Shown: in pieces, positions 9,896-33,656 of the stretch
How the letters are laid out: the number at the start of each line of letters is the position of its first letter
Position numbering within the stretch: position 1 is the stretch's first letter
Source: Verrucomicrobiota bacterium
Lineage (GTDB): Bacteria > Verrucomicrobiota > Verrucomicrobiia > Chthoniobacterales > UBA10450
NCBI GenBank assembly: GCA_902810735.1
Contig: CADDYX010000007.1
Location: 1-34,994, forward strand
Direction of reading: 5' to 3'
DNA length: 34,994 nt
Notes under the pieces: model-generated
What the model saw: only the letters and a program-made list of their open reading frames with translations
Databases searched by the model: none
Told to the model about the DNA's origin: nothing
Program-made: the position numbers and the translations under genes

Positions 9896-10294
9896 TTAGT
9901 TGTAAGGCGACCAGAACGAGTCGTCGGTCACGTCGGAGAGCGCAGTTTTAGTGGACGCGGGCACTTTCGGCAGCGAGTCGACGGTCTGCACGCCGTAGTC
10001 GTTCCCGAACAAGTCGGTGCCGGTCGAGTAGAGAGTGGTGTCTTTCTTGAGGTAGTTCGTCCAATCCTGCACGTTCACGGTGGCGCCGCTCGCCTTGGCA
10101 TTCTCGATCGCGTACTGGTCGACGGCTGCGTCGATCAAACGCAGATCATTGATGATCTTCGATGCCTGCGAGCGCTTGCGCGCGCGCAAAAATCCTGGGA
10201 CGGCGATCGCTGCAAGCAGCGCGATGATCGCGACGACGATCATGATTTCAACCAGCGTAAAGCCGGCACGTTTATGATTTAACTTGTTCAACAT
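9896..10294 (-). CDS. Type IV pilin-like / pseudopilin protein, copy 1
   Basis: The 132-residue prepilin has a short basic leader ending in KRAG11 with cleavage before F12. The classic hydrophobic helix follows (FTLVEIMIVVAIIALLAAIAV, with Glu at mature position 5), then GFLRARKRSQASKIINDLRLID. The C-terminal part is small and globular (ends SDVTDDSFWSPYN). No Cys pair is present. This fits the short pilin or type II secretion pseudopilin family of Verrucomicrobiota and relatives; it would be processed by PilD, which is not in this window. The ATG at 10294 is preferred to a TTG at 10300. By eye it matches its neighbour at about 116 of 132 residues, so they are a recent tandem duplication. It has no sigma-54-like site of its own in the 134-base gap and probably depends on the upstream promoter or on a promoter not recognised. 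Confidence 0.93.
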   Translation of the reverse strand: MLNKLNHKRAGFTLVEIMIVVAIIALLAAIAVPGFLRARKRSQASKIINDLRLIDAAVDQYAIENAKASGATVNVQDWTNYLKKDTTLYSTGTDLFGNDYGVQTVDSLPKVPASTKTALSDVTDDSFWSPYN

Positions 10295-10382
10295 GGTCAA
10301 AGGAGACGGGTTCGTTTGGTTTGTTATGTAGTGCGAGCGGCGATTGGCAGGACTGTCGAGTCTTGCGTCTCACAACTCATTC

Positions 10383-10409
10383 CCTGCCACCGGCGACGCC
10401 GGTGACAGG
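10383..10409 (-). terminator. Hairpin between the two pilin-like genes
   Basis: CCTGCCACCGGC and GCCGGTGACAGG form a 12-bp stem with one mismatch around a 3-base loop. It begins 19 bases after the stop codon of the upstream pilin gene. On the minus strand it is followed by GGAATGAG, with no T-run, so it may be an attenuator or an mRNA-stabilising structure rather than a full terminator. Such a structure could set different levels for the two pilin copies. Confidence 0.45.
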
Positions 10410-10428
10410 CGAATGAATCGTCAGATTC

Positions 10429-10827
10429 TTAGTTGTACGGTGACCAGAACGTGTTGTCGGTCACGTCGGAGAGAGCGGTCTTCGTGGAAGCCGGCACTTT
10501 CGGAAGCGAGTCGACGGTCTGTGCGCCGTAGTCGTTGCCGAGGATGTCCTTACCCGTTGAGTAAAGGTTGGTGCCTTTCTTCAGGTAGTTCGTCCAGTCG
10601 GCGGTGTTGACGGTGGCGCCACTCGCCTTGTTGTTTTCGATCGCGTACTGGTCGACCGCGGAGTCGATCAGGCGAAGATCGTTGATGATGCGGCTCGCCT
10701 GGGAGCGTTTACGGGCACGGAGGAATCCGGGCACCGCGATCGCTGCCAACAACGCGATGATCGCAACCACGATCATGATTTCCACGAGGGTGAAGCCCCC
10801 GCGGCGTTTGTTGAGTTTGTTTAACAT
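10429..10827 (-). CDS. Type IV pilin-like / pseudopilin protein, copy 2
   Basis: Like its neighbour this is a 132-residue prepilin: leader MLNKLNKRRGG with cleavage between G11 and F12, mature Glu5, and a hydrophobic helix identical to that of copy 1. The two copies differ mostly in the leader and in the region 66-102 (for example NTADW against NVQDW, GKDILGN against GTDLFGN), and share the C-terminus SDVT..FWSPYN. It is the first gene of a minus-strand series (pilin 2, pilin 1, TMTC-like, panE-like), and a sigma-54-like promoter lies 74 bases upstream of the ATG. Such differences outside the conserved helix would change the exposed surface of the fibre. Whether it forms a pilus or a secretion pseudopilus cannot be told from the sequence. 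Confidence 0.93.
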   Translation of the reverse strand: MLNKLNKRRGGFTLVEIMIVVAIIALLAAIAVPGFLRARKRSQASRIINDLRLIDSAVDQYAIENNKASGATVNTADWTNYLKKGTNLYSTGKDILGNDYGAQTVDSLPKVPASTKTALSDVTDNTFWSPYN

Positions 10828-10900
10828 GTTGTCTGTTCCTAGTTATCTGTTGTTTGTTTGACTGCGTTCCGCGGTACTCGCGGAGGTGACCGTGTTTAAA

Positions 10901-26616: not shown

Positions 26617-28398
26617 ATGCTGAATTTGCGGCTCCGCTTATGCGGTGTTGGATTCGCAGCCGCGGCCACGCTGGCAACGGCTCACGCGCAATCGCCATCT
26701 CCGGCTCCAGCTGATGATGGTCAGTGGACGATGCCCGGCCGCAATTACCAGGCCACGCGCTACAGCGGCCTCGACCAGATCAACACAGGGAACGCGAAAG
26801 ACCTGAAGGTCGCGTGGACGTTCTCGACCGGTGTGAATCGCGGGCACGAAGCGGCGCCACTCGTGGTCGGCGACACGATGTATGTCGTCACGCCGTTCCC
26901 AAACATTCTCTACGCGCTCGACCTGAAGAACGGCGGCGCGGCGAAGTGGAAATACCAGCCGGAGCCTGCGTCAGCGGCGCAGGGCGTGGCGTGCTGCGAC
27001 CTGGTGAACCGCGGGTGCGTGTTTTCGAACGGGAAAATCATTTTCAACACGTTGGACGATCACACGATCGCGGTGGACGCGAACACGGGGAAAGAGATTT
27101 GGAAGACCAAACTCGGCGACATTAACCACGGCGAGACGATCACGATGGCGCCGCTCGTCGTGAAGGACAAAGTTTACGTCGGCAACAGCGGCGGCGAACT
27201 CGGCGTGCGCGGCTGGTTGACGTGCCTCGATTCAAACAGCGGAAAAACTCTGTGGCGCGCGTGGAGCACCGGATCGGACGCGGATTGTCTGATCGGTCCT
27301 GACTTCAAACCGTTCTATAAAAAGGATCAGGGGAAAGAGCTCGGCGTCAGCACGTGGCCGCCGAATCGCTGGCAGATCGGCGGCGGCACCGTATGGGGCT
27401 GGGTGACATACGATCCGGAGTCGAACCTCATCTACTACGGCACGGGGAATCCCGGCGTTTGGAATCCGGAGCTGCGGCCCGGCGACAATAAATGGGCGTG
27501 CAGCATCTTCGCGCGCGATGCCGACACTGGCGCGGCGAAGTGGGCTTACCAGATGAACCCGCACGACGAGTTCGACCACGACGGCATCAACGAAAATCTC
27601 GTGCTCGATCTGCCGATCAATGGCCAGACGCGCAAGGTGCTGCTCGCCGCGCAACGCAACGGCTACGTCTACATGTGGGACCGCACCACCGGCGAAGTCT
27701 TGTCGGCGACGCCGTTCATCCGCATCACCTCGAGCTTTGGCGTTGATCTCAAAACGGGCGAGCTCCACACGAATCCTGAAAAGAAGCCGATGACCGGAAA
27801 GACGGTGCGCGACGTTGCTCCGGCCGCGCCCGGCGCAAAAGATTGGCAGCCGTGCGCATGGTCGCCGCGAACCAATTTGCTCTACATCCCGCACCAGAAT
27901 CTCGCGATGGATTATCAAGGCACGGAAGCGAGTTACATCGAAGGAACTCCCTACCTCGGCGTGAACGTAAAGATGTACGCGAACGGCAACGCCAACCGGG
28001 GCGAGTTCTGCGCGTGGGACCCGTTCCAGAAAAAGAAAGTGTGGGCGATCCAGGAAGATTTGCCGGTCTGGAGCGGCACGGTCGTGACGGCCGGCGACAT
28101 CACGTTTTACGGCACGATGGACGGCTGGTTTAAATGCGTGAACGCCAAAACCGGCGACGTGCTTTGGCAGTTCAAATGCGGCAGCGGCATCATCGGCCAG
28201 CCGGTCACTTACAAAGGACCTGACGGCAAACAATACGTTGCCGTGCTCGCCGGTGTTGGCGGCTGGCCGGGTGCGATCGTGGCCGCCGATCTCGACCCGC
28301 GCGATCCGACCGGTGCGCTCGGTTTTGTGAACGCGATGACCGATCTGCCGCAGAAAACGACCAAGGGCGGCATGCTCTATGTTTTCGCGCTGCCGTAA
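26617..28398 (+). CDS. xoxF: XoxF-type lanthanide-dependent PQQ methanol/alcohol dehydrogenase
   Basis: This periplasmic quinoprotein oxidises methanol (or other short alcohols) to the aldehyde and passes electrons to a cytochrome c. In 593 residues there is a signal peptide (cut after TAHA, residue 24) and an eight-bladed propeller. The vicinal disulfide is C126-C127 (GVACCDLV). Metal ligands are E194 (GGELGVRG), N278 (GTGNPG) and D320, with the second aspartate D322 in DEFD320-H-D322GIN. That D-x-D is the mark of lanthanide-binding enzymes and is lacking in Ca-dependent MxaF. W260 (GGGTVWGW) stacks on PQQ and R347 (QRNG) contacts it. The C-terminal FYGTMDGWFK, GSGIIGQPVTYKGPDGKQYV and GGWPGA are XoxF-typical. 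It leads an array that continues with XoxJ-like and XoxG-like proteins. The exact alcohol range is inferred. Confidence 0.93.
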   Translation: MLNLRLRLCGVGFAAAATLATAHAQSPSPAPADDGQWTMPGRNYQATRYSGLDQINTGNAKDLKVAWTFSTGVNRGHEAAPLVVGDTMYVVTPFPNILYALDLKNGGAAKWKYQPEPASAAQGVACCDLVNRGCVFSNGKIIFNTLDDHTIAVDANTGKEIWKTKLGDINHGETITMAPLVVKDKVYVGNSGGELGVRGWLTCLDSNSGKTLWRAWSTGSDADCLIGPDFKPFYKKDQGKELGVSTWPPNRWQIGGGTVWGWVTYDPESNLIYYGTGNPGVWNPELRPGDNKWACSIFARDADTGAAKWAYQMNPHDEFDHDGINENLVLDLPINGQTRKVLLAAQRNGYVYMWDRTTGEVLSATPFIRITSSFGVDLKTGELHTNPEKKPMTGKTVRDVAPAAPGAKDWQPCAWSPRTNLLYIPHQNLAMDYQGTEASYIEGTPYLGVNVKMYANGNANRGEFCAWDPFQKKKVWAIQEDLPVWSGTVVTAGDITFYGTMDGWFKCVNAKTGDVLWQFKCGSGIIGQPVTYKGPDGKQYVAVLAGVGGWPGAIVAADLDPRDPTGALGFVNAMTDLPQKTTKGGMLYVFALP

Positions 28399-29320
28399 CG
28401 CCGGTGCTGTAGCATCCGCTGTCCTCAGCGGAATTCCGTTCAGCTCGAATGCGCTGAGGACAGCGCACTCTACAGCGGTCATTCTCATTTCCTGCGTCGC
28501 AAGCGCCGCATTCGCGCAGCAGGATTGTTGCGTCGGGCTTCAAGAGCCCGCGCCGGCAAACGCGAAGCGCATCCTGCGGATCACTTCCGATCCGAACAAT
28601 CTGCCGTTCTCAAACGAGAAGCGCGAAGGATTCGAAAACAAAATCGCGGAGCTGGTCGCGAAGGAGCTCGGCGCCGAAATCCAATACTCGTGGCGAGCGC
28701 AACGCCGCGGATTTTTTCGCGAGACGCTCAAGGAGAATCGCGCCGATCTCGTGCTCGGCGTGCCGGCGCATTTCGACATGGCGCTGACGACCCAGCCTTA
28801 CTATCGCTCGAGCTACGCGTTCGTTTATCGCAAGGACCGCAACCTGCACATCGGCTCGCTCGACGACCCCCAACTGCGGAAGCTCAAGATCGGTGTCGAG
28901 ATGATCGGAAACGACGGCCGCAACACGCCGCCCGCGCACGCGCTCGGCGATCGCGGAATCATCGACAACGTCGTCGGCTACACCGTTTACGGAGATTACT
29001 CGCAGGCGAATCCGCCGGCGCGCGTGATCGATGCCGTGGCGCGCGGCGACATCGACGTGGCGATCGCGTGGGGACCGCTGGCCGGTTATTTCGCGAAACG
29101 CGCGGGCGTGCCGCTCGAAGTGGTGCCGGTCACGCCCGCGGCCGATCCGAATTTGCCGTTCACGTTCGCGATCGCGATGGGCGTCCGCAAAGGCGACAAG
29201 CAGTTGCAGAACGAACTGAACGCGGCCCTGGCGCGCAAACGCGCGGAGATCGACAAAATTCTCGACGAATACGGCGTGCCGCGTGTTCCAGATCCACCGA
29301 AGCAGGTCGCGACGAAATGA
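28379..29320 (+). CDS. xoxJ: XoxJ-like periplasmic binding protein with a REP-derived leader
   Basis: The 313-residue protein has the two-lobed periplasmic solute-binding fold of quinoprotein-dehydrogenase-associated proteins (XoxJ/MxaJ type): RILRITSDPNNLPFSNEKREGFENKIA, ADLVLGVPAHFDMALTTQPYY, KIGVEMIGNDGRNTPPAHALG and DIDVAIAWGPLAGYF. XoxJ is thought to help load or activate XoxF. The signal peptide is VILISCVASAAFA, cut before QQD, but it is preceded by 33 residues. The only in-frame ATG/GTG/TTG is the ATG at 28379, inside the xoxF 3' end, so residues 10-33 are translated from a REP element (28406-28476). An unusually long N-region of this kind is odd for a Sec signal. The stop overlaps the cytochrome gene (ATGA). 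Confidence 0.85.
   Translation: MFSRCRNAGAVASAVLSGIPFSSNALRTAHSTAVILISCVASAAFAQQDCCVGLQEPAPANAKRILRITSDPNNLPFSNEKREGFENKIAELVAKELGAEIQYSWRAQRRGFFRETLKENRADLVLGVPAHFDMALTTQPYYRSSYAFVYRKDRNLHIGSLDDPQLRKLKIGVEMIGNDGRNTPPAHALGDRGIIDNVVGYTVYGDYSQANPPARVIDAVARGDIDVAIAWGPLAGYFAKRAGVPLEVVPVTPAADPNLPFTFAIAMGVRKGDKQLQNELNAALARKRAEIDKILDEYGVPRVPDPPKQVATK
28406..28476. repeat. REP doublet 1 (BIME-like), between xoxF and the XoxJ signal peptide
   Basis: A 71-bp imperfect inverted repeat beginning GCTGTAGC and ending CTACAGC. The left half carries the inner hairpin TCCGCTGTCCTCAGCGGA (type a). The right half, read in reverse, carries GCGCTGTCCTCAGCGC (type b). It begins 7 bases after the xoxF stop and is read through in frame by the xoxJ reading frame. 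It has the same a-then-b order as doublet 2. Confidence 0.93.
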
Positions 29321-29871
29321 AAACGCGCGTTCTCATGACGATTTGCTGTGCAGCTGCGCTGGTCAGCTGCAAACGTGAAGAGCGCGGATTCCGTGTCGCG
29401 CCGCCTTCAGCGGAGAAAATTGAAACGAAGTCGCTCAGCGACCTGCATCCGGCCGGCAGCTCCGTCGCGCCGCCGACGAAGAATGACTATCGGGAGAACG
29501 CTTACGCAGTCAGCGAAGGCGAGAAGTTGTTCGCCGCTTACAACTGCGTCGGCTGTCACGCGCACGGAGGCGGCGGAATGGGCCCGGCGTTGATGGACAA
29601 CAAGTGGATCTACGGCAGCCAGCCGCAGCAGATTTTCTCGACGATCGTCGAAGGCCGGCCAAACGGCATGCCGTCGTTCCGCGGCAAAATTCCTGATTTT
29701 CAGGTGTGGGAGCTCGTTGCCTATGTGCGGAGCATGAGCGGCCTCGGCACGAGCGGCGCATCGCCCAATCGCAGCGACGAAATGAAAGGCCCGACGCCGC
29801 CGAGCTCGATGCCAAAACAAACGCCGCAGAATTCGTCGCTGCCAAAGTCGGCGGAGAGGCCGCCGCCGTGA
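29317..29871 (+). CDS. xoxG: XoxG-like lipoprotein cytochrome c, probable electron acceptor of XoxF
   Basis: The 184-residue protein starts at the ATG overlapping the xoxJ stop (ATGA). It has a lipoprotein signal (MKTRVLMTICCAAALVSC; lipobox L15-V-S-C18), a linker of about 40 residues, and one class I cytochrome c domain with heme motif C77-V-G-C80-H81. A later Met (GRPNGMPSF) is the likely sixth ligand, followed by the usual C-terminal helix VWELVAYVRSMSGL. A Pro/Ser-rich tail ends the protein. The position after xoxF-xoxJ is that of the dedicated cytochrome of lanthanide dehydrogenases. The lipid anchor would hold it at the membrane next to the cytochrome oxidase encoded immediately after it. 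The name rests on context as well as on the domain; closeness to characterised XoxG was not tested. Confidence 0.8.
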   Translation: MKTRVLMTICCAAALVSCKREERGFRVAPPSAEKIETKSLSDLHPAGSSVAPPTKNDYRENAYAVSEGEKLFAAYNCVGCHAHGGGGMGPALMDNKWIYGSQPQQIFSTIVEGRPNGMPSFRGKIPDFQVWELVAYVRSMSGLGTSGASPNRSDEMKGPTPPSSMPKQTPQNSSLPKSAERPPP

Positions 29872-29972
29872 GCGCTCACCGCTGCTGTAGCGTCCGCTGT
29901 CCTCAGCGGATCCCTCGGATACGGCGATCGCACAATGCGCTGAGGACAGCGCACTCTACAGCAGTCGAATGA
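29868..29972 (+). other. Open frame crossing REP doublet 2 and ending on the coxB start codon
   Basis: A GTG at 29868 overlaps the xoxG stop codon (GTGA). It opens 34 codons that cross the whole of doublet 2 and stop at a TGA (29970-29972) overlapping the coxB ATG (ATGA). The product would begin with V/M-SAHRCCSVRCPQR. It is reported as a possible coupling frame or as a relic of the former xoxG/coxB junction, not as a functional protein. Confidence 0.45.
29884..29962. repeat. REP doublet 2 (BIME-like), between the cytochrome gene and coxB
   Basis: A 79-bp head-to-head pair: the left half GCTGTAGCG with inner hairpin TCCGCTGTCCTCAGCGGA (type a), a central spacer of about 25 bases, and a right half which in reverse reads GCTGTAGAG then GCGCTGTCCTCAGCGC (type b). 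It starts 12 bases after the xoxG-like stop and ends 6 bases before the coxB ATG, so coxB has no room for a Shine-Dalgarno outside the repeat. Confidence 0.95.
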
Positions 29973-30955
29973 CGGCGCTCTTGGCGATCAGCGAAATTCA
30001 ATCGGCACTCGCGCCGGCCGGTACGCAGGCGATGCGCATTTCGCAGCTTTGGTGGGTGTATCTCACCGTCCTGAGCGCGATTTTTGTGCTCGTCGCGATC
30101 GCGTTGTTTATCGCGCTGTCGCGACGACACGCAGTCGCGGAATTACCGGCGCCGCCATTCGCGCCAGGCGAGGCGAGCGAACGGCGCACGTCCACAGCTG
30201 TCACGCTGTGCGTGATCGCAACGGTCATCATTCTGTTCGTCCTGCTGTTCTGGGATTTCTTCACCGGTCGCGCGATCTACGCGCTCACATCAGACAAGGA
30301 ATTCCTGCACATCAAAGTCATCGGCCATCAATGGTGGTGGGAAGTGCAGTATCAGGATCCGACGCCGAGCAACGTCATGACAACCGCGAACGAGTTGCAC
30401 GTGCCGCTCGGCAAAACAGTGAAGCTAGAGCTGCAATCCAACGATGTGATCCACAGCTTTTGGGTACCGGCGATGCACGGCAAAAAGGATCTGATCCCGG
30501 GTCACCCGACGGTGCAGTACTTCCGCGCCGACAAGGAAGGAACGTTCCGCGGCCAATGCGCCGAATTTTGCGGACATCAGCACGCGCACATGCGGCTCGA
30601 GTTCGTCGCCGAGTCGCCGGACAAATACGAAGCGTGGCTGGCGGCCGCGCGGCAGAATGCGCCGAACCCGACAACTGCAATGCAGCAGCGCGGCCTGCAG
30701 GTGTTCATGTCGAACCAATGCATCATGTGCCACACGATTGAAGGCACGGCCGCGCGCGCGTCGCTCGGACCTGATCTCACCCACCTCGCGAGCCGCAGCT
30801 TCATCGCCGCCGGCGCGGTGCCGAACACGCGCGGTTATCTCGCCGGATGGATCGCAAATCCGCAGAACATCAAACCCGGTGTGCGCATGCCGCCGAATCC
30901 ACTCTCGAGCGACGACCTGAACGCGCTCGTCGATTACCTGGAGAGCTTGAAATGA
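29969..30955 (+). CDS. coxB: Cytochrome c oxidase subunit II with fused cytochrome c domain (caa3 type)
   Basis: The 328-residue protein has two membrane helices (about 27-50 and 76-98), then the cupredoxin domain. H162, C197, E199, C201, H205 and M208 (CAEFCGHQHAHM) make the binuclear CuA site, and QWWWEVQY (121-128) is the aromatic entry. A class I cytochrome c domain follows with C251-IM-C254-H255 and M307 as ligand. It takes electrons from cytochrome c in the periplasm and feeds subunit I. In relatives the conserved 'SALDPAG' segment (here SALAPAG, 12-18) is usually preceded by a lipoprotein or signal sequence; here only 11 residues precede it, the first 8 of them not obviously a signal. 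The REP doublet ends 6 bases upstream, so the original N-terminus or start may have been altered. Confidence 0.95.
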   Translation: MTALLAISEIQSALAPAGTQAMRISQLWWVYLTVLSAIFVLVAIALFIALSRRHAVAELPAPPFAPGEASERRTSTAVTLCVIATVIILFVLLFWDFFTGRAIYALTSDKEFLHIKVIGHQWWWEVQYQDPTPSNVMTTANELHVPLGKTVKLELQSNDVIHSFWVPAMHGKKDLIPGHPTVQYFRADKEGTFRGQCAEFCGHQHAHMRLEFVAESPDKYEAWLAAARQNAPNPTTAMQQRGLQVFMSNQCIMCHTIEGTAARASLGPDLTHLASRSFIAAGAVPNTRGYLAGWIANPQNIKPGVRMPPNPLSSDDLNALVDYLESLK

Positions 30956-30964
30956 AAACCGGCG
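30940..30964 (+). other. Relic of the ancestral coxA translation start
   Basis: GGAG (30940-30943), 8 bases, then ATGAAAACCGGCG (30952-30964) lies across the coxB stop codon as an ATGA overlap. The true coxA start shows GGAG, 8 bases, GTGAAAGCCGGCG (31656-31680). The element length is identical and 11 of the last 13 bases match, while the 8-base spacer does not align without a gap. This looks like the original, coupled coxA start, separated from its gene by the RAYT/REP insertion. Confidence 0.55.
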
Positions 30965-30976
30965 TTCACTCACCGT

Positions 30977-31040
30977 GCTGTAGCGTGCGTTGTCCTCAGC
31001 GCAGTTGCGCGGAGTCCGCTGAGACAGCGGACGCTACAGC
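30977..31040. repeat. REP doublet 3 (BIME-like), left flank of the RAYT gene
   Basis: A 64-bp head-to-head pair starting 21 bases after the coxB stop. The order is opposite to doublets 1 and 2. The left half is type b (GCTGTAGCGTGCGTTGTC then CTCAGCGCA), and the right half is type a in reverse (TCCGCTGAGACAGCGGACGC), with one base missing in the TCCT loop. This is the most degenerate of the four copies. Confidence 0.93.
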
Positions 31041-31059
31041 ATCGGTCGGCAGCACAGCG

Positions 31060-31566
31060 TCACGCGCGATCGATTACGACGATTTCGCCTGCGTACGGCC
31101 AATCGTCGGCTTGTCTCACAACCCCCGCGCGCACGGGATTGTCGCGCACGTAGTTCCATTTCTCTCGATAGCTCTCGTCGCTCCGCAGCAAGTGGTCGTG
31201 AAATCCAGGTTGCCAGAACGAGCGCAGCTTCTGGCCAGCCATGGCACCCGCGCACTGAGCGGCAGCTCTGAGCGGCACGTCCAAATGCCGCTTCAGACCT
31301 TTAACCCAGTCGCTCAGCCTGACACGGCTTCCGACGCCGAGTCTGACAAACAAATGGACGTGGTCGGGCATGATGACGTAGCGGCCGACCGCCATTTCGA
31401 ACTCAGACGCGCGCCGGCAATACTCAACGAAAGCACGGTGCACTTCATCAGTGGCAAGGAATCGCTGCCGCTGAAACGTATTGAAGGTCACGAAGAAGAG
31501 CGGCGCGTTGAAACGCTGAAAAATCAGCCCGAGCCGCGGCGGTTTACCCTTAACTTTCCGCTGCAC
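31060..31566 (-). CDS. REP-associated tyrosine transposase (RAYT, Y1_Tnp/IS200-like)
   Basis: The 168-residue protein, counted from a GTG at 31566, has the Y1 transposase fold. H69-V-H71 is in MPDHVHLFVRLG, the HUH metal site. Further on come LKRHL, SFWQPGFHDHLLRSDESY and Y139 in KWNYVRDNPVRAGVV, the catalytic tyrosine helix typical of RAYTs and distinct from the insertion-sequence IS200 group. It would nick single-stranded REP hairpins. The frame continues upstream through doublet 4 without a good start, so the GTG right after the repeat is chosen. It is flanked by REP doublets on both sides, as is usual for this family, and lies antisense to the cox genes. It appears intact. The exact start is uncertain by a few codons. 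Confidence 0.9.
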   Translation of the reverse strand: MQRKVKGKPPRLGLIFQRFNAPLFFVTFNTFQRQRFLATDEVHRAFVEYCRRASEFEMAVGRYVIMPDHVHLFVRLGVGSRVRLSDWVKGLKRHLDVPLRAAAQCAGAMAGQKLRSFWQPGFHDHLLRSDESYREKWNYVRDNPVRAGVVRQADDWPYAGEIVVIDRA

Positions 31567-31573
31567 GACGACC

Positions 31574-31641
31574 GTTGTAGCGTGCGCTGTCCTCAGCGCA
31601 TATCGGATTTTCGTTCCGCTGAGGACAGCGGACGCTACAGC
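31574..31641. repeat. REP doublet 4 (BIME-like), right flank of the RAYT gene
   Basis: A 68-bp head-to-head pair in b-then-a order: the left half GTTGTAGCGTGCGCTGTCCT followed by CAGCGCA, and the right half in reverse GCTGTAGCG with the hairpin TCCGCTGTCCTCAGCGGA. It lies 8 bases upstream of the RAYT start and 14 bases before the coxA Shine-Dalgarno. With doublet 3 it brackets the transposase. Confidence 0.95.
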
Positions 31642-31667: not shown

Positions 31668-33656
31668 GTGAAAGCCGGCGCTGTTGCGCGCGAGGCGGTG
31701 ATTTCGGCCGAGGAAGATCAGCGCGTCCATCGCGAGCTCGATCTGACGTGGCGACGGCGGCCGGGACTGCTCGGCTGGCTCGAGACGACAAACCACAAGG
31801 ACATTGCGATCCGTTACATCATCACCGCGTTCATTTTTTTCCTGCTCGCCGGAATTCTCGCCGCATTGATGCGCATCCAGCTCGCCTTTCCCGAAAACCA
31901 CTTCATCGGGCCCGATCTCTACAATCAATTCTTCACCGTCCACGGCACGACGATGATGTTCCTGTTCGCGGTGCCGATGATGGAAGCGATCGGCCTTTAC
32001 TTCGTGCCGCTGATGGTCGGCACGCGCAACGTGTCCTTCCCGCGGCTGAACGCGTTCGGTTACTACGTCTATCTTGCCGGCGGCATTCTGCTCTACGCGG
32101 GCTTGTTCCTGAACATCGGGCCGGACACCGGCTGGTTCTCGTACGTGCCGCTCGCCGGCCCGCAGTTTTCGCCGGGCAAACGCGTGGATTTCTGGGCGCA
32201 AATGATCACGCTGACGGAAATCGCGGCGCTGGTCGGCGCGGTGGAAATCATCACGACGGTTTTCAAACAGCGCGCCGTCGGCATGTCGCTCAATCGCATC
32301 CCGCTCTTCGTCTGGGCGATGGTGGTGCAGTCGTTCATGGTGATCTTCGCGATGCCCGCGGTGATGCTCGCGAGCAGCTATCTCGCGGCGGATCGCCTGG
32401 CGCACGTCAATACACACTTCTTCAATCCCGCGGAAGGCGGCGACGCGCTGCTCTACCAGCACATCTTCTGGTTCTTCGGACACCCCGAAGTCTACATCAT
32501 CTTCATTCCCGCGACGGGATTCGTCTCGACAATTATCCCGACGTTCGCGCGCCGCAAAATTTTTGGCTACACGCCGCTCGTTCTCGCGCTGATCACGACC
32601 GCGTTCATCGGCTTCGGGCTGTGGGTGCACCACATGTTTGCCACGCCAGTGCCGGACCTCGGCCAAAGCTTTTTTACCGCGGCGAGCATGATCATCGCGA
32701 TTCCGAGCGGCATCCAAATCTTCTGCTGGATCGCGACGCTCTGGGGCGGCAAACCGTGGCTGAAAACGCCGCTGCTCTGGGTCGGCGGCTTCGTGCTGAT
32801 TTTTGTCCTCGGCGGACTGAGCGGCATCATGCTCGCCTCGGTGCCGATCGATCTGCAGGTGCACGACACCTATTTCGTCGTTGCGCATTTCCATTACGTG
32901 CTGATCGGCGGCGCGGTCTTTCCGCTCTTTGGCGCGTTCTATTATTGGTTCCCAAAATGGACCGGCCGCATGCTGAGCGAGTCGTTAGGCCAGCTGAATT
33001 TCTGGCTCTTCTTTATCGGATTTAACCTGACGTTTTTCCCGATGCATACGCTCGGTCTGCACGGCATGACGCGCCGCATTTACACCTACGTGCCGGAGAC
33101 TGGCTGGGGCCAGATGAACCTGCTCGCGTCAATCGGCGCCGGCGTCATTGGCCTCAGCGTGCTGACGTTCATCACGAACGTGTTGATCAGCCGAAAACGC
33201 GGCGCGCTCGCCGGTGATAATCCATGGGGCGCGTCGACGCTTGAATGGGCAACGCTCTCGCCGCCGCCGAGCTACAACTTCCTTTACCTGCCGACGGTGC
33301 ACGGCCGCGACGCATTGTGGGACCAGGCCGTGATCTCGCCTGTAATCACCGGCCTCAGCACGGAAAAGCGCGAGGTCTTGAACACGACAATGCTCGAAGC
33401 CGCGCCGGATCATCGCTACGAGATGGTCGGCGATTCGATTTATCCGCTGCTGCTCGCGCTCGCCGTCGGCCTGACGTTTACGTGCGGCATCTTCAACGCG
33501 TGGGCATTCCCGATCGGCGCGTTGTTCGCGTTGCTCGCGCTGATCCCGTGGTTCTGGAGCGGCACGGAAACGAAGAAGCAACAGACCGACAAAGCCGACA
33601 AACCGCAGAGCGCGCTCGATCTGCCGCCGTCCTTTGCGCCGTCGGAAATCACATGA
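31668..33656 (+). CDS. coxA: Cytochrome c oxidase subunit I (A-type heme-copper oxidase)
   Basis: The 662-residue protein is the catalytic, twelve-helix core of the terminal oxidase that reduces O2 to water and pumps protons. H92 (FTVHGTTMMF) and H409 would ligate the low-spin heme, and H407 (VVAHFHYVL) the heme a3. CuB is held by H272, H321 and H322 (WVHHMFATP). E274 and Y276 in WFFGHPEVYIIFIP give the A-family proton path and the His-Tyr crosslink. The Pro-rich segment TLEWATLSPPPSYNF is typical of the caa3-like branch. The C-terminus has two extra helices and a charged tail. It begins with GTG at 31668 after GGAGG. Its stop overlaps coxC (ATGA). The RAYT composite separates it from coxB, with which it was probably once coupled. 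Confidence 0.97.
   Translation: MKAGAVAREAVISAEEDQRVHRELDLTWRRRPGLLGWLETTNHKDIAIRYIITAFIFFLLAGILAALMRIQLAFPENHFIGPDLYNQFFTVHGTTMMFLFAVPMMEAIGLYFVPLMVGTRNVSFPRLNAFGYYVYLAGGILLYAGLFLNIGPDTGWFSYVPLAGPQFSPGKRVDFWAQMITLTEIAALVGAVEIITTVFKQRAVGMSLNRIPLFVWAMVVQSFMVIFAMPAVMLASSYLAADRLAHVNTHFFNPAEGGDALLYQHIFWFFGHPEVYIIFIPATGFVSTIIPTFARRKIFGYTPLVLALITTAFIGFGLWVHHMFATPVPDLGQSFFTAASMIIAIPSGIQIFCWIATLWGGKPWLKTPLLWVGGFVLIFVLGGLSGIMLASVPIDLQVHDTYFVVAHFHYVLIGGAVFPLFGAFYYWFPKWTGRMLSESLGQLNFWLFFIGFNLTFFPMHTLGLHGMTRRIYTYVPETGWGQMNLLASIGAGVIGLSVLTFITNVLISRKRGALAGDNPWGASTLEWATLSPPPSYNFLYLPTVHGRDALWDQAVISPVITGLSTEKREVLNTTMLEAAPDHRYEMVGDSIYPLLLALAVGLTFTCGIFNAWAFPIGALFALLALIPWFWSGTETKKQQTDKADKPQSALDLPPSFAPSEIT

Follow-up and report, generated by a model that had tools for sequence, protein, structure and literature searches.

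The window analysed here, a stretch of 34,994 nucleotides that forms contig 7 of a 3.01-Mb genome (96% complete), carries a same-strand gene array whose products were recognised by Pfam: a PQQ alcohol dehydrogenase (xoxF-like, 26617-28398), a solute-binding protein (xoxJ-like, 28379-29320), a cytochrome c (xoxG-like, 29317-29871), cytochrome oxidase subunit II (coxB, 29969-30955) and cytochrome oxidase subunit I (coxA, 31668-33656). The xox names follow gene order and homology. A gene for a REP-associated tyrosine transposase (RAYT) is placed between coxB and coxA, on the minus strand (31060-31575, with a GTG start near 31566). Elsewhere in the window, two neighbouring direct copies of about 400 nt at 9896-10828, which match at 82% and 75% over two stretches, probably reflect a tandem gene duplication.

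An earlier note on this DNA had described four REP doublets in the array, each made of one type a and one type b half, and we found all four between 28406 and 31641. As that note had stated, doublets 1 and 2 run a-b on the plus strand and doublets 3 and 4 run b-a; the halves stand head to head, with GTAG at the outer ends of every doublet. Doublet 1 (28406-28476, plus strand; a half 28409-28432 on the plus and b half 28450-28473 on the minus strand) falls in the gap that separates xoxF from the xoxJ-like gene, and doublet 2 (29884-29962, plus; a half 29887-29910, plus; b half 29936-29959, minus) in the interval that runs from the xoxG-like cytochrome gene to coxB. Doublet 3 (30977-31040, minus; b half 30980-31003, plus; a half 31015-31037, minus) separates coxB from the 3' end of the RAYT gene, and doublet 4 (31574-31641, minus; b half 31577-31600, plus; a half 31615-31638, minus) sits immediately upstream of where the RAYT gene starts, and coxA comes next. 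Neither pattern nor hairpin scans found a doublet in the other 31 kb of the window. The suggested restriction to the xox-cox array thus holds within the window but not for the genome, in which contigs C21, C26, C56 and C109 carry four further doublets. The xoxJ-like ORF reads through doublet 1 in its 5' part, where the doublet is open in frame and precedes a signal-peptide-like segment.

Each half consists of GTAG, two bases and a 7-bp hairpin with the loop TCCT (once TCT), the short hairpin after GTAG that marks GTAG-class REPs. The a stem, TCCGCTG/CAGCGGA, was as first described. The b stem, described as GCGCTG/CAGCGC, is likewise a full 7 bp (TGCGCTG/CAGCGCA), and the b half of doublet 3 departs from it, reading TGCGTTG/CAGCGCA with one T-G wobble. 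The sole difference between the types is the second stem base pair, C:G in a and G:C in b. Searching with the pattern GTAGNGTNCGCTGTCCTCAGCGNA and up to 3 mismatches gave 7 matches in the window, all within the array, where shuffled sequences led us to expect 0.00; the one half missed by this pattern, type a of doublet 3 with its 3-nt loop TCT, was detected by the hairpin scans.

Mixed doublets predominate in the genome and its relatives

Four mixed doublets alone are weak evidence for a pairing rule, because 1 in 16 such sets would be expected if the types were free to combine. The counts from the genome and the family are what make the constant a/b pairing strong evidence. By pattern searches, the genome of the window holds 8 doublets on 5 contigs, dispersed copies but a low number for a REP family, and all 8 are a/b, some halves outside the window being mutated. 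All 14 of its near-perfect halves stand in mixed head-to-head pairs and none is single, so that these elements, two inverted REPs around a linker with doublets exceeding singlets, have the structure of REPINs or BIMEs.

Exact patterns applied to 83 genomes of the family identified 145 a/b doublets (in 31 genomes of 8 genera), 2 a/a and 0 b/b, the excess of mixed over same-type pairs that the earlier note had predicted. Both a/a doublets lie on one contig of one genome (G026:C94, 46582-50785), 4 kb apart; we rejected them as true homodimers, since their loops differ (TCT and TCCC). A second hairpin family, GCGCGTG/GCGGCTG, gave 29 mixed doublets and none of either same type in the same 83 genomes. 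When the discriminating base pair was left free in a scan of public species genomes, the matches listed included 123 doublets, of which 110 were a/b, 2 a/a and 1 b/b, while 10 had one half mismatched or altered. The three same-type doublets differ in loop, and there was no perfect homodimer among the matches listed. Records with a/b doublets, again among the matches listed, were mostly Chthoniobacterales, Verrucomicrobia or Udaeobacter MAGs.

Single halves were assessed in a sample of relatives picked by single halves and drawn mostly from one genus, g4. Its 57 near-perfect halves comprised 32 in head-to-head mixed pairs, 10 in tail-to-tail mixed pairs, 2 in mixed pairs of ambiguous arrangement, none in same-type pairs and at most 13 single, an upper bound because two of these (L165 and L175) have a partner by another hairpin scan. 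Two apparent head-to-tail pairs (L149 and L176) were artefacts of reading palindromes and are really head-to-head. Of the two kinds of exception that would have spoken against the prediction, same-type pairs are therefore not frequent, but single halves are fairly so in g4, where most are concentrated and which is another genus than that of the window. Their occurrence agrees with the published view, in the available text of PMC3116915, that singlet REPs are remnants and that the doublet is the replicating unit. Further repeated palindromes occur near doublets in genus g4 (L160, L165 and L171; genomes G050 and G047), for example GTAGGGGCGATTG...CAATCGCC and GTAGGGCAGGCA...TGCCTGC.

The doublets have a fixed polarity relative to the RAYT gene

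The product of the RAYT gene carries the HVH and Tyr-x-x-x-NPV motifs, the HUH and Tyr motifs of a RAYT-type Y1 transposase. It matched Y1_Tnp (PF01797) at 3.2e-06, above the cut-off, and NF047646, the family of REP-associated tyrosine transposases, at 9.1e-30 (103.5 bits, cut-off 80). Its single match among solved structures was E. coli TnpArep (4er8, 1.3e-10), spanning the HVH and Tyr-NPV stretches. It is not an IS200/IS605 transposase by NF033573, with 22.3 bits lying far under the cut-off of 55.

We noted that all 12 a/b doublets flanking a RAYT gene place a on the RAYT sense strand and b on the opposite strand, at 7 RAYT loci with none reversed, and halves at other loci of the same RAYT clade match this polarity. 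A constant order was also found in RAYT clades with other hairpin pairs: CGCTTCGC/CGTCGCCC, GCGCGTG/GCGGCTG, and, based on few doublets, ACCGGCC/ACGGCCC and GCAGGCG/GCAGCCG. In the RAYT tree the a/b loci are monophyletic (100/99) and three other pair types are each confined to one clade, consistent with a REPtron, in which each RAYT clade has its own REP type. Among the remaining RAYT lineages of the family are some with same-type doublets (GGCGCTTC, GCGGCCG), some with only lone inverted hairpins, and some whose doublets are weakly different and show no fixed order (GGYGYTTG). The same polarity rule applies at the E. coli K-12 rayT locus, where, with types assigned from stem sequence, Y REPs lie on the rayT strand (3/3) and Z2 REPs on the opposite strand (3/3). 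One relative (G103, L058 1980-3360) carries a tandem array of doublet, broken RAYT, doublet, intact RAYT and doublet remnant.

The discriminating base pair persists at orthologous sites

We compared doublets at orthologous sites, 27 pairs whose flanks are less than 98% identical; the pairs share loci and so are not independent, and the search pattern required the remaining stem to be intact. The linker differs in 26/27 pairs, and the free foot base and the loop each differ in 20/54. Discriminating positions differ in only 6/108, traced to three mutated doublets and never amounting to a type switch, and polarity is equal in 27/27. At one orthologous site (L041 vs L122) the flanks are about 91% identical and the hairpins intact, but the 25-nt linkers have almost nothing in common, as if linkers were exchanged or evolved much more rapidly than the flanks. 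Five of the 10 half-changed doublets from the type-neutral scan, among the matches listed, show the C/G-type change expected from arm-to-arm correction. A route to same-type pairs is therefore open, yet it is hardly ever completed.

Insertion of a whole doublet and possible movement of RAYT cassettes

The proposal that the doublet, rather than the single hairpin, is the unit gains support both from the pair counts and from a whole inserted doublet. In a relative (G007, L068 2134-2196), an in-frame a/b doublet with its linker adds about 25 residues to xoxF, and the xoxF of the window is without it. This insertion is indirect evidence that the doublet moves as a unit, as REPINs and BIMEs do. The xoxF-xoxG and xoxG-coxB gaps of G007 hold no doublets. 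The xoxG-coxB gap holds one in another relative (G115, L278 ~1420-1500, b-a with a decayed b half) and in the window, in opposite polarity, which suggests separate insertions.

Where a/b RAYT cassettes are compared, DNA similarity stops at the far ends of the doublets on either side (as in L185 1412-2080 vs L189), and the cassettes occur in at least seven distinct gene contexts, judged from neighbouring ORF translations identified by eye. In G037, coxA comes directly after coxB, and no RAYT gene lies between them. We infer from these sequence comparisons that the whole cassette has probably moved together; the alternatives are rearrangement, or insertion after horizontal transfer. At the empty sites in xoxF and between coxB and coxA, the relatives are too diverged to place exact insertion boundaries. 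Linkers resemble one another more often than by chance (31 similar pairs vs 1.8 in shuffles, score >=0.2), but as a shared core they are weak evidence for recent copying of the whole unit, because the highest-scoring pairs come largely from orthologous sites.

Discussion

The doublets are heterodimeric REPINs or BIMEs, a type of element already known, and have a cognate RAYT. Their closest parallel is E. coli BIME-2 (Y, Z2) with TnpA_REP (rayT), which likewise has two types of GTAG hairpin in inverted pairs, the RAYT gene between them and one type per strand at the rayT locus. E. coli REPs differ in being longer and bulged, Y and Z are told apart by loop length as well as by several positions, and downstream of rayT their order begins with Z2 and alternates. 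The window stems are perfect 7-bp palindromes, and the doublets are thus not Y/Z BIMEs in the E. coli sense. The heterodimers described by Di Nocera et al. 2013 (PMC3733652), such as P. aeruginosa GTAG-24 with its different stems, share the head-to-head arrangement, variable linker and GTAG tag but have other sequences in other organisms, Opitutus terrae being the sole Verrucomicrobium in the available text. In Pseudomonas fluorescens SBW25 (PMC3116915, available text), two inverted REPs are also the replicating unit, but the pairs form within the GI, GII or GIII types rather than between two types. Mixed Y/Z BIMEs have been described (available text of PMC8266576 and PMC6006769). In the portions of these papers at hand we found no account of the strand on which each type lies relative to the RAYT in different clades, nor of a single-base-pair distinction with such counts, and the accessible text of PMC3733652 does not describe a polarity fixed relative to the RAYT.

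We propose that these elements, a hairpin, linker and b hairpin, spread as one unit through the RAYT encoded between doublets 3 and 4, and that their asymmetry is maintained by selection against cross-pairing; we give this account as a whole a probability of about 0.6. By analogy with E. coli TnpA_REP (PMC8266576, available text), the RAYT would act on these hairpins by binding single-stranded DNA at GTAG and the hairpin behind it. With the halves facing each other, type a alone would be presented on one strand in the direction that the enzyme can recognise, and type b alone on the other. Flipping C:G to G:C should leave each hairpin about equally stable, and would set C against C and G against G when the halves cross-pair. 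These clashes would favour two small hairpins over one long hairpin that is prone to nucleases and hides the RAYT site, and selection would maintain the difference.

Folding 117 natural doublets with DNA parameters, alongside a/a or b/b versions made in silico, is consistent with reduced cross-pairing. The long hairpin was predicted in 117/117 same-type versions, with an advantage of 17.7 kcal/mol over two small ones; in natural doublets the mean advantage fell to 5.3 kcal/mol, and 42/117 were predicted to form no long hairpin. Reduced cross-pairing is the best-supported and most likely reason for the asymmetry, although 75/117 natural doublets are still predicted to fold into the long hairpin. 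Nor is asymmetry a general need, because other RAYT lineages have same-type doublets or single inverted hairpins, and copying of an already mixed ancestor with slow mutation could yield much of the same count.

Recognition of asymmetric ends is the main rival. A RAYT dimer might read a as the left and b as the right end, as in IS200/IS605, with only a/b a competent substrate and the flip serving as an identity mark. The fixed polarity in the a/b clade and in clades with other pairs, the confinement of Y and Z2 to opposite strands at rayT, the restriction of each main pair type to one RAYT clade and the conserved discriminating pair all accord with it. That polarity fits equally well, however, with a RAYT cassette passed on by descent while selection opposes cross-pairing, and RAYT clades with same-type pairs exist. 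TnpA_REP, moreover, recognises REP and ignores inverted REP on one strand (PMC8266576, available text), so that a single enzyme would not have to treat the two types as left and right ends, and we consider end recognition rather unlikely.

Inertia ranks third and is still less likely: one ancestral mixed doublet would have been copied many times, same-type pairs staying rare without selection because a change from a to b takes two transversions by way of a mismatched stem. Doublets are probably copied whole, and 10 of the 123 doublets among the matches listed have a half-changed pair, five of them of the C/G type. Those same doublets show that the path is open yet hardly ever completed, the discriminating pair persists where linkers, loops and foot bases turn over, and the mixed rule recurs with different base pairs in separate RAYT clades. 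It is more improbable again that the host keeps the doublets as RNA hairpins that stabilise or attenuate the xox-cox operon mRNA, with mobility secondary. All four do occupy intercistronic gaps of the same-strand array, and comparable roles are discussed for other REPs (available text of PMC3733652). Against this, doublets in same-direction contexts of other genomes show no orientation bias relative to host genes (18 vs 26, by a crude ORF caller), G007 lacks them in two of these gaps and has one inside xoxF, and pairing and polarity track the RAYT rather than the operon.

A bolder extension of the polarity rule, which we hold possible though doubtful, is that a left/right code is tied to the RAYT in every two-type REPtron from Verrucomicrobia to E. 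coli, one type being confined to the sense strand and the other to the opposite strand, and that the [a-b]-RAYT-[a-b] cassette is itself a transposing unit whose ends are the doublets. This would run against the view of RAYT genes as immobile; published work states that there is no evidence for mobility of tnpA_REP (PMC8266576, available text).

Many REP families prefer heterodimers over homodimers, a preference that PMC3733652, in its available text, called unexplained in 2013, suggesting protection from SbcCD. It is now directly testable, because here a single base pair separates the halves and the evidence extends over large counts, sites shared by orthology and several clades of RAYT. The polarity on the RAYT side, common to the E. 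coli locus, is a simple rule that can be checked in other genomes. Soil Verrucomicrobia carry short two-hairpin mobile elements whose facing halves nearly always differ by a single flipped base pair and whose types are fixed in orientation to the RAYT thought to move them, much like the Y and Z elements of E. coli.
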